DNA of 64,000 nucleotides from assembly GCF_018780105.1 (NCBI RefSeq), contig NZ_JADMKC010000007.1, forward strand, positions 1 to 64,000, in the 5' to 3' direction. Numbering within the stretch: position 1 is the first letter of the stretch; the number at the start of each line of letters is the position of its first letter. Below the pieces are notes generated by a model that saw only the letters and a program-made list of their open reading frames with translations, did no database searches and had not been told where the DNA came from. The translations under genes and the position numbers were made by a program. This DNA is from Thiobacillus sp. Its GTDB lineage: Bacteria > Pseudomonadota > Gammaproteobacteria > Burkholderiales > Thiobacillaceae. Shown piece by piece: positions 17,390 to 22,246 of this stretch.

Positions 17390-18557
17390 GTCCGTCATCC
17401 GTTTGTTCAACGGCGGCCTGACAACCCAGCCGCCGCTGTCGCTCTACATCCACCTGCCGTGGTGCGTAAAGAAATGCCCGTATTGCGACTTCAATTCGCA
17501 TGCGCTGCAGACGCTTCCCGAAGCCGCTTATATCGATGCCTTGCTGCTGGATCTGGAGCAGGCCTTGCCGGACATCTGGGGGCGCAAGATCCACACGGTG
17601 TTTTTCGGCGGCGGCACGCCGAGCCTGTTTTCGGCGGAAGGGATCGACCGCATTCTCACCGGCGTGCGCACCCTGACGCCGCTGATGCCCGGTGCCGAGA
17701 TCACGCTGGAAGCCAACCCGGGCACGGTGGAAGCGGCCAAATTTGCGGGCTTTCGCGCGGCGGGGGCGACCCGCGTCTCGCTCGGCATCCAGAGTTTCAA
17801 TCCGCGTCACCTGCAGGCGCTGGGGCGGATCCACGACGACCGCGAGGCGCGCCGTGCGGCCGAGCTGGCTGCCACTCATTTCGACACCTTCAACCTCGAC
17901 CTGATGTACGCGCTGCCGGGGCAAACCCTGGCCGAGGCCCTGGCCGACATCGACATCGCGCTCGGCTTCCAGCCGCCGCATGTGTCGGCCTATCACCTCA
18001 CGCTCGAACCCAACACGCCGTTTGGCCATACTGCGCCGCCCAATCTGCCGGATGACGACGTGGCCGCCGACATGCAACAGGCCATCGAAGCCCGTTTGGG
18101 CGAGGCGGGGATGCAGCACTACGAAACTTCGGCCTATGCGCGGCCGCATCACGCCAGCCGCCACAATCTCAACTACTGGCAGTTCGGCGATTACCTCGGC
18201 ATCGGCGCGGGCGCGCATTCCAAGCTCAGTTTTCACGACCGCATCCTGCGCCAGATGCGTACCAAGCATCCGCAGCAATACATGGACGCAGTCGGGCAGG
18301 GCACGCACATCGCCGACGTCCGCACGCTGACCCGCGGCGACCTGCCGTTCGAGTTCATGATGAATGCGCTGCGCCTGAACGAGGGCGTGCCTGCCGCCTT
18401 GTTCGAGGCGCGCACCGGGCTGCCGCTGATCGTCTGCACCGACGCATTGGAGAAAGCGCGTGCGCAGGGCTTGTTGCTGCCCGACGCGGCCCGGCTGAAA
18501 CCGAGCCTGCAGGGACAACGCTTTTTGAATGACCTGCTGGAATTGTTTCTGGCTTAA
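17382..18557 (+). CDS. hemW: Radical SAM heme chaperone HemW
   Basis: Radical SAM protein that binds heme and delivers it to respiratory enzymes; once annotated as coproporphyrinogen oxidase. The CxxxCxxC cluster motif is CVKKCPYC near residues 28-35, followed by FFGGGTPSLFS, SLGIQSFNPRHLQALGR and YETSAYARP. The start is uncertain: a TTG at 17382 (overlapping rdgB by 8 bases) gives 391 residues, and no better ATG exists before the cluster motif. rph-rdgB-hemW is a common proteobacterial order. Confidence 0.93.
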   Translation: MAESVIRLFNGGLTTQPPLSLYIHLPWCVKKCPYCDFNSHALQTLPEAAYIDALLLDLEQALPDIWGRKIHTVFFGGGTPSLFSAEGIDRILTGVRTLTPLMPGAEITLEANPGTVEAAKFAGFRAAGATRVSLGIQSFNPRHLQALGRIHDDREARRAAELAATHFDTFNLDLMYALPGQTLAEALADIDIALGFQPPHVSAYHLTLEPNTPFGHTAPPNLPDDDVAADMQQAIEARLGEAGMQHYETSAYARPHHASRHNLNYWQFGDYLGIGAGAHSKLSFHDRILRQMRTKHPQQYMDAVGQGTHIADVRTLTRGDLPFEFMMNALRLNEGVPAALFEARTGLPLIVCTDALEKARAQGLLLPDAARLKPSLQGQRFLNDLLELFLA

Positions 18558-19714
18558 CGACTTGCCGTGCGGAATCCGGCGAACACATCGCGCCGCTCCG
18601 GCAAATAAAAATTGCGGAACCCCGGTCGTTTGAGCCGCGTATCGGTCACCGGCCCGCCGCCGCGCAATTCCCGATGGCTGTGAAACCAGGGCTGCGAATA
18701 GTCGCGGTAGGGGTCGGGCTCAAATCCGGGGTAGGGCGCGAAGGTGTCGCGTGTCCATTCCCAGCCCGCCCCCCAGACAAAATCAACCGCCCCGGTCGCG
18801 TGCTGCCATTCGGCGGTGCTGGGTAGGCGGCGTCCCAGCCAGGCGGCGCACGCCTCTGCTTCAAAACCATTGACATGCAGCATGGGCGCGCCTGCATGCA
18901 ATGGCGTCCATTGTGCAAAGCGGCGCACCTGCCAGCCGCCGTCGGCCTTGCGCCAGTACGCCGGGTGGCTCGCACCGCTGGCCGAGCGCCAGGCCCAGCC
19001 CGCTTCGGACCACGCCGCGCGGTGCTGATAGCCGCCGGCGTCGACGAAGGCGGCAAAGGCCGCTTCGCTCACCGGCGTGGCGTCGATATCGAATGCGGGA
19101 ACGCGCACGCTGTGCCGCCATTTTTCGTTGTCGAAAATGAAGCCTGCGTGGAGGCCGCTGCCCAGTGTCGCCTCGGTCTCGACTAAGGCCAGGCGTTGGG
19201 CGAGCAGGGGCAGATCGCCCGGCAGCCTCAGTGCAACAGGCGGCGCATAGCCCAGGTACTGAAACGCCATCCACCAGGCTTCGATATGCATCAGCTCGTG
19301 ATACAGGCACAGCTCGGCCAGATAGGCCAGCGCGGGCGTGAATTCGCTGAGCAAGCGGGCCGTCACGGCGGCTGTTATCCGCTCGGTGTAGGCATCGAGT
19401 TCGGCGGGCGGCAGCAAGGCCAGATCCCAGCGCGTGTCGTGCGGCACGGCGGACGAATCGTAAAGTGCATCGGCACCCGGCAGCAGGCTGTCGGCGAAAC
19501 GGTCGTCCGCCCGCGCCCGCAGGCACCAGCGCTCCTGAAACCATATGATGTGGCCGATTTCCCACAGCGGCGGATTCAGGATCGGGTCGCGTGGTCCCAG
19601 CCAGCCGTCTGCAGGCAGGTAGCCGGCCAGCGTGCGCAGCTGATCGCGCACCAGCGCCAGGCTGGCGATGAGCTGCTCCGGCGTGTAGCCGCTGACGGGG
19701 CGATCAAGGTTCAT
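18554..19714 (-). CDS. EgtB/SenA-like non-heme iron C-S/C-Se bond-forming enzyme
   Basis: A 386-residue two-domain protein. The N-terminal DinB-like domain holds the likely iron ligands, His55 (EIGHIIWF) and the HxxxHxE motif YHELMHIEAWW (His139, His143). The C-terminal half is a formylglycine-enzyme-like fold (NEKWRHSVRVPAFDID, RLPSTAEWQHAT, GWEWTRDTFAPYPGFE, FRTASR). Relatives are EgtB (hercynine plus cysteine or gamma-Glu-Cys) and SenA (hercynine plus a selenosugar). It faces selD-egtD across 57 bases, which favours SenA; no SenB glycosyltransferase, EgtC or EgtE is in the window. Exact substrate unproven. Confidence 0.8.
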   Translation of the reverse strand: MNLDRPVSGYTPEQLIASLALVRDQLRTLAGYLPADGWLGPRDPILNPPLWEIGHIIWFQERWCLRARADDRFADSLLPGADALYDSSAVPHDTRWDLALLPPAELDAYTERITAAVTARLLSEFTPALAYLAELCLYHELMHIEAWWMAFQYLGYAPPVALRLPGDLPLLAQRLALVETEATLGSGLHAGFIFDNEKWRHSVRVPAFDIDATPVSEAAFAAFVDAGGYQHRAAWSEAGWAWRSASGASHPAYWRKADGGWQVRRFAQWTPLHAGAPMLHVNGFEAEACAAWLGRRLPSTAEWQHATGAVDFVWGAGWEWTRDTFAPYPGFEPDPYRDYSQPWFHSHRELRGGGPVTDTRLKRPGFRNFYLPERRDVFAGFRTASR

Positions 19715-19771
19715 GCTATATAGGTACTCTCAATCTAGGCTTCCACTTTAAACCACAGGTGAATTCAGAAC

Positions 19772-20839
19772 ATGAGCGAGCCCATCCTTAATGCCCCCAT
19801 CCGCCTGACCCAGTTCTCCCACGGCGGCGGCTGCGGCTGCAAAATCGCGCCGTCCGTGCTACGCGAAATTCTCGCCGACACGCCTTTTACCTCGCACATG
19901 GCGGCGGCCTATCCGGACTTGCTGGTGGGCATCGAGCATGGCGACGACGCTGCCGTGTATCGGCTGAACGACGAGCAGGCCATTGTCGCCACCACCGATT
20001 TCTTCATGCCGATCGTGGACGATCCCTACGAATTCGGCCGCATCGCCGCCACCAATGCCCTGTCCGATGTCTATGCCATGGGTGGGCGGCCATTGTTCGC
20101 GCTGGCCATCGTCGGCATGCCGATCGGCAAGCTGCCCAACGACGTCATCCGGCAGATCCTCGCCGGCGGCGAAGCGGTGTGCAAGGCGGCCGGCATTCCG
20201 ATCGCGGGCGGGCATTCCATCGACGCGCCGGAGCCGATCTACGGCCTGGTGGGCATCGGCGTGGTCGATCCGCGCCGCGTCAAGACCAACGCGGGCGGCC
20301 AGGCGGGCGACGTGCTGATCCTCGGCAAGCCGCTCGGGGTGGGGATTTACAGCGCCGCACTGAAAAAAGAAGCGCTCAGCGCCGATCAATACGCCGCCAT
20401 GATCGCCGCCACCACCCAGCTCAACACTGCCGGCGCCGACCTTGCCGGCCTCGACGGCGTCCACGCGCTGACCGATATCACGGGCTTTGGCCTGGCCGGA
20501 CATTTGCTGGAAATCACCCGCGCCTCGAAGCTGGCTGCCCGCGTCGAATTCGCGCGCCTGCCGCTGCTGCCGGGGGTCGCCGAACTGGCGCAAGCCGGCT
20601 TGACCACCGGCGCCAGCCAGCGCAACTGGGCGAGCTACGGCGCTGAAGTCAGTATCGGCCCGCTCGCCGACTGGCAGCAGGCTGTCCTCACCGACCCGCA
20701 AACCAGCGGCGGCCTGCTGGTGAGCTGCGCGCCCGAAGCGCGCCAGGCCGTGCTCGACCTGTTTCACCGGCACGGCTTTGCCGGCGCGGTGGAAATCGGC
20801 GGCCTGCATGCGGGAACGAACGTCACGGTTGTTGCCTGA
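19772..20839 (+). CDS. selD: Selenide, water dikinase (SelD/SenC-like)
   Basis: Makes selenophosphate from selenide and ATP. The 355-residue protein has the catalytic SHGGGCGCK segment (Cys21, Lys24), GIEHGDDAAVYRLND, TTDFFMPIVDDPYEFGRIAATNALSDVYAMGG and the GGHSIDAPEP motif. The redox residue is Cys, not an in-frame TGA for selenocysteine. Its stop touches the egtD start with no gap, and an EgtB/SenA-like gene is divergent, so selenophosphate may feed selenoneine. Use for selenouridine or selenoproteins cannot be excluded; no selA, selB, selC or selU is seen here. Confidence 0.95.
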   Translation: MSEPILNAPIRLTQFSHGGGCGCKIAPSVLREILADTPFTSHMAAAYPDLLVGIEHGDDAAVYRLNDEQAIVATTDFFMPIVDDPYEFGRIAATNALSDVYAMGGRPLFALAIVGMPIGKLPNDVIRQILAGGEAVCKAAGIPIAGGHSIDAPEPIYGLVGIGVVDPRRVKTNAGGQAGDVLILGKPLGVGIYSAALKKEALSADQYAAMIAATTQLNTAGADLAGLDGVHALTDITGFGLAGHLLEITRASKLAARVEFARLPLLPGVAELAQAGLTTGASQRNWASYGAEVSIGPLADWQQAVLTDPQTSGGLLVSCAPEARQAVLDLFHRHGFAGAVEIGGLHAGTNVTVVA

Positions 20840-21781
20840 ATGTCGTTTCGCTTTGTCGACTTGCCTGCAGCGCACGACGACCTGCGCGCCGACGTGCTGG
20901 CGGGACTGGCCGCGCAGCCCAAGTCCATCCCGCCCAAATACTTTTACGACGAAGCCGGCTGCCGCCTGTTCGAGGCCATCTGCGCACAGCCCGAATACGC
21001 CCTCTGCCGTACCGAGCGTGCGCTCATGGACGCGCACCTGTCCGAAATCGCTGCCGCCATCGGCGCGGTCGATTGCATCATCGAGCCGGGCGCGGGCGAC
21101 TGCGTCAAAGTCCGCGCCCTGCTCGACACCGTGCACCCCAGCCAGCTGGTGGTGTTGGACATCGCAGGCGAACCGCTCGCCGCTGCCGCCGGCGCGCTGG
21201 CGCTGGAATATTCCGGCGTGGCGGTCAGCGCGCTGGGCATGGATTTCATCCGCAGCCTGGAAGACGCTACGCCTTACCTCATGGGCGGTCGGCGGCTGGT
21301 CTATTACCCCGGTTCCAGCATCGGCAACTTCACGCCGGCCGAGGCTGCCGCCCTGCTCGCGCGCTTTCGCAAGCTGGCGGGCGAGGCGGGCCAGTTGCTG
21401 ATCGGCTTCGACCTCAAAAAAGACCCGGTCGAGCTTCACCGCGCCTATAACGACGTTGCAGGCGTGACCGCAGCCTTCAACCTCAACCTGCTGGCGCGCT
21501 TGAACCGCGAACTCGAAGCCGATTTCGACCTCGGCCAGTTCCGCCACTACGCCTTCTACAATCCGGTCGCCGGGCGCGTCGAAATGCATTTGATCAGCCT
21601 GACTGGGCAAACCGTCCGTGTCGCGGGGCAGCGTTTCCATTTCGCGCTGGGCGAAAGCGTGCATACCGAGAATTCCTGGAAATTCCGCGGTGACGAATTC
21701 AGCGCCATCGCCGCAAGCGCGGGCTGGCAGCGGGTTCAGACGTGGGAGCGGGACGGCTTTGCGGTGCAGCTGTACGGATAA
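20840..21781 (+). CDS. egtD: L-histidine N-alpha-methyltransferase
   Basis: Trimethylates histidine to hercynine with three S-adenosylmethionines, the first step to ergothioneine or selenoneine. The 313-residue protein shows the EgtD pattern: KSIPPKYFYDEAGCRLFEAI at residues 28-47, CRTERALM, IEPGAGDCVKVRALL (SAM loop), YYPGSSIGNFTPAEA and GFDLKKDP, plus the late ESVHTENSWKF. Immediately after selD, so the two are surely co-transcribed, a genuine selenium-hercynine link. Confidence 0.93.
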   Translation: MSFRFVDLPAAHDDLRADVLAGLAAQPKSIPPKYFYDEAGCRLFEAICAQPEYALCRTERALMDAHLSEIAAAIGAVDCIIEPGAGDCVKVRALLDTVHPSQLVVLDIAGEPLAAAAGALALEYSGVAVSALGMDFIRSLEDATPYLMGGRRLVYYPGSSIGNFTPAEAAALLARFRKLAGEAGQLLIGFDLKKDPVELHRAYNDVAGVTAAFNLNLLARLNRELEADFDLGQFRHYAFYNPVAGRVEMHLISLTGQTVRVAGQRFHFALGESVHTENSWKFRGDEFSAIAASAGWQRVQTWERDGFAVQLYG

Positions 21782-21823: not shown

Positions 21824-22246
21824 TCAATACGCAGCCTCGTGTACCTGGGGCATGCCGTCGGCTTCCCAGCGGGCGTAGCCGCCTTCCATGTTCAGCACAT
21901 TCTTGAAGCCCATCATCTGCAGCACCGCGGCGGCCATGGCCGAGCGGCCGCTGGTGGCGCAATAGACGACGATCTGACGGTCGCGCGCCGCGGCCAGTTC
22001 GGGCAGGTGTTTCGGATAGGCGGGGTCGGCGGCCGCCTCGATGATGCCGCGCGGAACCAGATGGGCGCCCTTGATGTGGCCGGCCTCGTACTCGCTGTGC
22101 TCGCGCACGTCGATCAGCAGCAGGTCTTCCCGGGCGCTGAGTTTGTCCAGCAGGGTCTGCGGGGAAATTTCCTTGACGCAGGATTTGGCTGCGCGAACGA
22201 AGTCCATCAGGCCCATCGCCTGTTCGGGTTTGAAGGTGTTGTACAT
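21824..22246 (-). CDS. Rhodanese-like sulfurtransferase
   Basis: A 140-residue single rhodanese domain. LLLIDVREHSEYEAGHIKGA (residues 42-61) and the active-site loop VVYCATSGRSAM with Cys96 are present, so it should carry a persulfide. About 30 residues precede the domain (Met-rich, VRAAKSCVKEIS), with no signal peptide or membrane segment. It converges on egtD with a 42-base gap. Sulfide or selenide handling for the neighbouring cluster is possible but inferred only from position. Confidence 0.88.
   Translation of the reverse strand: MYNTFKPEQAMGLMDFVRAAKSCVKEISPQTLLDKLSAREDLLLIDVREHSEYEAGHIKGAHLVPRGIIEAAADPAYPKHLPELAAARDRQIVVYCATSGRSAMAAAVLQMMGFKNVLNMEGGYARWEADGMPQVHEAAY

Follow-up and report, generated by a model that had tools for sequence, protein, structure and literature searches.

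The window, a 64,000-nucleotide stretch of DNA from Thiobacillus sp., contains a locus at which genes for a putative selenoneine synthase (senA), a selenide, water dikinase (selD) and a histidine N-alpha-trimethyltransferase (egtD) were found as three intact open reading frames (ORFs). On the reverse strand, senA (18554..19714) encodes an iron enzyme of the EgtB/OvoA superfamily of 386 amino acids (aa) that contains His55, His139 and His143, as well as Tyr339, Asn368 and Phe369. It is separated from the divergent selD by an intergenic region of 57 bp (19715..19771) with a TATATA-type stretch adjoining the senA start codon; this stretch recurs in same-genus relatives, as seen in an alignment of 25 senA-selD intergenic regions. 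On the forward strand, selD (19772..20839) encodes a protein of 355 aa with a Cys-type GGGCGCK motif that would act as SenC, and its last base immediately precedes the ATG of egtD (20840..21781, forward strand), the 313-aa product of which is predicted to form hercynine. The ORFs and the 57-bp gap bear out a first-pass annotation of this DNA, which had described an EgtB-type enzyme with three His residues divergent from selD, and egtD following selD without a gap. SelD scored 530 bits against NF002098 (cut-off 299), 435.9 bits against TIGR00476 and 334 bits against Escherichia coli SelD (3u0o), whereas EgtD obtained 359.6 bits against TIGR03438 (cut-off 290.9) and 211 bits against EgtD 4uy6.

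The senA product is best called SenA, selenoneine synthase, as supported by sequence comparisons and a predicted structure. Its score was 436 bits for the SenA family NF041186 (cut-off 420), as compared to 250.7 bits for EgtB (TIGR03440, cut-off 360) and 89.7 bits for OvoA (TIGR04344, cut-off 400). The nearest Protein Data Bank (PDB) sequences were Variovorax SenA (8ryz, 269.4 bits; 8k5i, 269.3 bits), followed by the ovoselenol synthase OvsA (8ux5, 194.1 bits; 8u41, 185.1 bits) and EgtB (4x8b, 166.2 bits). With an AlphaFold model (predicted local distance difference test score [pLDDT], 92.6; predicted template modeling score [pTM], 0.91), Foldseek placed SenA 8k5j first (E-value of 3.8e-35, template modeling [TM] score of 0.90, 42% identity), ahead of OvsA (8.6e-30, 30% identity) and EgtB (1.1e-26, 31% identity); the TM-scores were nearly equal (0.91 to 0.86), and this ranking rests on identity and E-value. 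His55, His139 and His143 align with the three His residues of the solved SenA, OvsA and EgtB proteins. We also built a quick tree from 92 rows, comprising the window protein, 88 sequences of fetched loci and 3 derived from the PDB, and this run gave long-branch warnings. The protein fell into a 25-row clade (support of 100) within a 74-row SenA/OvsA clade (89) and not with the cysteine-using EgtB enzymes; 15 EgtB-type rows formed another clade (82). The deep forks of this tree are moderate evidence.

Since OvsA ranks second among the solved proteins and belongs to the same superfamily and large clade, we considered that the enzyme might be an OvsA acting on histidine. According to its title, PDB entry 8ux5 is an M401Y/Q430N/A431F variant of OvsA that binds hercynine and has selenoneine activity, and Tyr339, Asn368 and Phe369 of the window protein are the same residues at these columns. 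The Halomonas utahensis OvsA (8u41, 8u42) differs in its Met/Gln/Ala triad and longer loop. Among the 92 rows the Tyr/Asn/Phe triad was present in 82 (including the engineered 8ux5 row) and Tyr/Asn/Tyr in 4, with Met/Gln/Ala in a single relative (L106). EgtB-type rows also carry Tyr/Asn/Phe or Tyr/Asn/Trp, the latter being found in Mycolicibacterium EgtB 4x8b, so that the triad argues against OvsA and not against EgtB. The loop preceding the WEW motif comprises 11 aa in the window protein and 12 in Variovorax SenA; it is longer in an EgtB-type relative (28 aa) and in the OvsA-like protein at L039 (62 aa). With SenA also the better match and an adjacent egtD to supply hercynine, an OvsA identity was rejected on its triad, and we regard this option as extremely unlikely. 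As a separate observation, the proteins at L039, L038, L033 and L119 score above the SenA cut-off and lie near OvsA in the tree, yet have the hercynine-type Tyr/Asn/Phe triad, which makes them a test case for the origin of OvsA.

The first-pass annotation had noted that SenB, the selenosugar synthase, was missing from the locus. This is correct, but it does not extend to the genome, which consists of 62 contigs with a tool-derived completeness of 100% and harbors senB at C24:125137-126099, on the same contig and 103 kb beyond egtD, with a score of 440.9 bits for TIGR04348 (cut-off 300). A reading without SenB was hence rejected, and of the two options proposed earlier, namely, SenB located elsewhere or replaced by another selenium donor, the former holds and the latter is not needed. 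SenB is full length and shares 97% identity with its counterpart in a proteobacterial metagenome-assembled genome (MAG), 94% with that of Thiobacillus sp. DeMMO2_16 and 86% with that of Thiobacillus thioparus DSM 505, these being its best named matches, which point to the genus Thiobacillus. Its residues N17, T20, K153 and E226 match N20, T23, K158 and E231 of Variovorax SenB, the catalytic residues with roles assigned in PMC10891094. The gene precedes ycaO (NF040716, 885 bits) by 22 bp on the same strand (G000:C24:123360-126099); senA, senB and senC do not form a three-gene cluster, given the 103 kb between senB and egtD. The genome-wide search also revealed one SelD over the cut-off, one EgtD match, SelA (588.9 bits), MnmH (380.2 bits) and one protein of the FGE-sulfatase type; no second EgtB-type protein was found. 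Nothing in the genome exceeded the EgtC cut-off (best match of 26.4 versus 218.65 bits); the first-pass annotation had noted EgtC as missing from the locus.

With four intact genes of fitting families (senA, selD, egtD and senB) in one genome, we estimate a probability of roughly 85% that this Thiobacillus-type bacterium has a complete selenoneine pathway with dispersed genes, of which the locus holds the larger part; the best reading is known chemistry in a new layout. Following the steps outlined in PMC9814287 and PMC10702425, SelD would generate selenophosphate, which SenB would join to a UDP-sugar to form a selenosugar, and EgtD would trimethylate histidine to hercynine. SenA, as the three-His iron enzyme, would then link hercynine to the selenosugar, and the resulting selenoxide would decompose to selenoneine, a selenium-containing antioxidant. 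The coupling of selD and egtD would place both substrate arms on one transcript. As SelA and MnmH were found alongside a single SelD, selenocysteine and 2-selenouridine probably depend on this SelD too; as no EgtB was found, hercynine is probably consumed by SenA alone. The earlier proposal that this enzyme inserts selenium into hercynine, with SenB encoded elsewhere, is thus supported at the level of sequence by the preference for SenA over EgtB and OvsA and by the SenB in the genome, whereas its alternative, ergothioneine, is weakened by the lack of a second EgtB-type protein and of an EgtC over the cut-off in that genome.

Several points weigh against this interpretation. The SenA score exceeds the cut-off by only 16 bits, and several same-genus orthologues fall slightly below it (e.g., 417.8 bits in G273). 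The SenA model fails to separate SenA from OvsA-like proteins, as illustrated by L039, which scores 483 bits and has OvsA as its best PDB match. The SenA/OvsA clade has a support of 89, short of 95, and the quick tree drew warnings of long branches. The window SenB reads EGGANV, as compared to EGGAHV in Variovorax, its gene is unlinked from senA, and homologous SenBs exist without SenA. Lastly, an unrelated sulfur route is conceivable, the genome-wide search for ergothioneine genes having covered EgtB-type proteins, EgtC and EgtD.

The gene arrangement is conserved among relatives. SenA was over the cut-off in 51 of 117 genomes of the family, and among the 30 loci returned for the best scorers, 21 belonged to the genus of the window and were of the SenA type. 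At all of these 21, senA is divergent from selD, and egtD stands behind selD at 18, indicating a linkage beyond chance. At the other three (L133, L138 and L142), egtD was also absent from stretches of 19 kb, and no senB was present in the fetched 1.5-kb flanks of the 21 senA loci. A different order, in which senA is directly divergent from egtD, was observed in genus g117 (L126, L140 and L151) and in G289 and G317. In a MAG of the same family labelled Hydrogenophilus (G316, L268), a stretch of 5.6 kb holds senB-selD and senA/egtD, with senA and senB 2.4 kb apart and selD between them; we infer that the window layout is a rearranged four-gene set. Divergent SelD proteins with 35 to 38% identity were noted in the sen clusters of G212, G219 and G003 (L154:12370-13344, L155:1220-2194 and L156:9916-10890, respectively), and the open frame of that in G003 comprises 851 aa, which suggests a fused SelD.

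Ergothioneine genes also occur in the genus. Eight same-genus genomes gave a further match of the EgtB type, at about 340 bits, and five of these were inspected. In three of them (G301, G248 and G259), egtD is located beside egtB and not beside selD, whereas G249 and G289 have no egtD by egtB but one at the sen locus. The three genomes with an egtB-egtD pair include that of T. thioparus DSM 505, which carries senA, selD and senB as well; G301 has coordinates identical to those of G312, to which the locus of this strain belongs. Two genomes depart from this pattern: G283 has no EgtB-type match, yet no egtD near selD, and G167, also devoid of an EgtB-type match, has an egtD with an in-frame stop on another contig. 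Downstream of the latter gene (L147:5014-5940, contig C18), an open frame of 758 aa contains a second SelD-like match. The EgtB-type gene G289:C50:10172-11407 contains two in-frame TAG stops.

The egtB-egtD pairs in three Thiobacillus-type genomes make ergothioneine possible in the genus, and bear on the alternative that the window protein is a sulfur-using EgtB, that the locus makes ergothioneine and that selD is adjacent by chance. In line with this alternative, egtD adjoins the gene, and the protein shares with EgtB (4x8b of type I; 6qki and 6o6l of type II) the superfamily, the DinB and FGE-sulfatase fold, the three His residues and the hercynine pocket, in which 4x8b has Tyr/Asn/Trp at the triad. 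An EgtB identity was nonetheless rejected on family score, PDB matches, tree and Foldseek order: the protein stays below the EgtB cut-off, matches SenA and OvsA better and lies outside the clade of EgtB-type rows. Considering also that no EgtC exceeded the cut-off and that SelD is adjacent at 21 of 21 same-genus loci, we consider this alternative very unlikely, and a SenA-based selenoneine pathway is preferred.

We also analyzed the co-occurrence of these genes in 200 genomes of the order, in which SenA was over the cut-off in 44, SenB in 57 and EgtD in 84. SenB was found in 40 of the 44 SenA genomes versus 17 of the other 156, and EgtD in 42 of the 44. In six of the 17 genomes with SenB only (G076, G113, G125, G141, G163 and G198), a SenA-like gene scoring below the cut-off is located near senB, and no SenA-type match was obtained in the other eleven (G014, G028, G043, G050, G062, G069, G088, G095, G106, G182 and G187), where the best matches of the SenA search were of OvoA length or weak; in G062, the gene of a 336-bit match adjoins egtD. 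SelD exceeded the cut-off in all eleven, as it did in 143 of the 200 genomes overall, which corresponds to a chance of about 2.5% if the two were independent, and EgtD was not found in ten. The SenB catalytic residues were kept in all eight proteins aligned from these eleven genomes. In a 49-row SenB tree, the window SenB belongs to a 29-row clade (support of 100) that mixes SenBs with and without a SenA neighbour. Among 80 named SenB loci, the best 80 of 565 confirmed, many of which have flanks cut by contig ends, the fetched flank contained a SenA-type gene in 35 cases and ycaO in 19, and never both. A homologue of a SpoU-like RNA methyltransferase and pyrG were noticed near senB at several SenA-less loci (e.g., L080, L082 and L084, among loci L078-L087).

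These data are relevant to the possibility that the selenium donor of SenA is not the selenosugar made by SenB, and that the unlinked SenB serves another purpose. The position of senB 103 kb away and beside ycaO, the 19 ycaO loci without SenA in the fetched flank and the 11 of 57 SenB genomes lacking a SenA-type gene are consistent with it. However, SenA and SenB occur together in 40 of the 44 SenA genomes, senA and senB are close to each other in L268 of the same family, and the window SenA retains the features that it has in common with Variovorax SenA, so that we judge this possibility highly improbable and consider SenA to be probably supplied by SenB. More tentatively, and with considerable doubt, SenB might in this lineage be a free-standing selenosugar maker that feeds more than one sink, the selenosugar being a selenium currency common to several routes instead of an intermediate of a single one. 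The sinks would then be SenA where senA is present and another user or a storage form elsewhere; the latter would apply to senB beside ycaO in Thiobacillus, and to the selD genomes that lack a SenA-type gene and mostly EgtD.

The window genome resembles Variovorax paradoxus DSM 30034, with its senA-senB-senC cluster, in containing homologues of SenA, SenB and SelD/SenC, plus EgtD, but differs in that senB is 103 kb from senA, egtD is behind selD and the only SelD probably supplies SelA and MnmH as well. The window SenA has the iron ligands, the PYRDYS-PWF and RNF stretches, the short loop before WEW and the fold of the solved SenA (8ryz, 8k5i-k); however, identity is 42% over the fold alignment, and the protein belongs to a 25-row clade of its own.

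Convergent with egtD, a gene on the reverse strand (21824..22246) encodes a single-domain rhodanese of 140 aa (PF00581, 82.8 bits). EanB, the enzyme of the anaerobic route, is a multi-domain protein, and the rhodanese was rejected as a multi-domain sulfur donor of this anaerobic type because it consists of a single 140-aa domain. At the Thiobacillus-type loci that were inspected, no homologue of it was listed in the vicinity of senA, and weak rhodanese matches were confined to L154 and L155. This protein is probably outside the pathway.

Taken together, these data would place a complete selenoneine gene set in chemolithotrophic sulfur oxidizers, organisms with large sulfur fluxes in which a selenium-specific route has to cope with sulfur in great excess. 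As senB may lie apart from the other genes and the housekeeping copy of selD may be the one used, searches for contiguous senABC clusters would miss producers. The cultured strain T. thioparus DSM 505 could permit a comparison of selenoneine and ergothioneine in one organism, and the SenB genes without SenA hint at uses of selenosugars that have no description in the literature surveyed.

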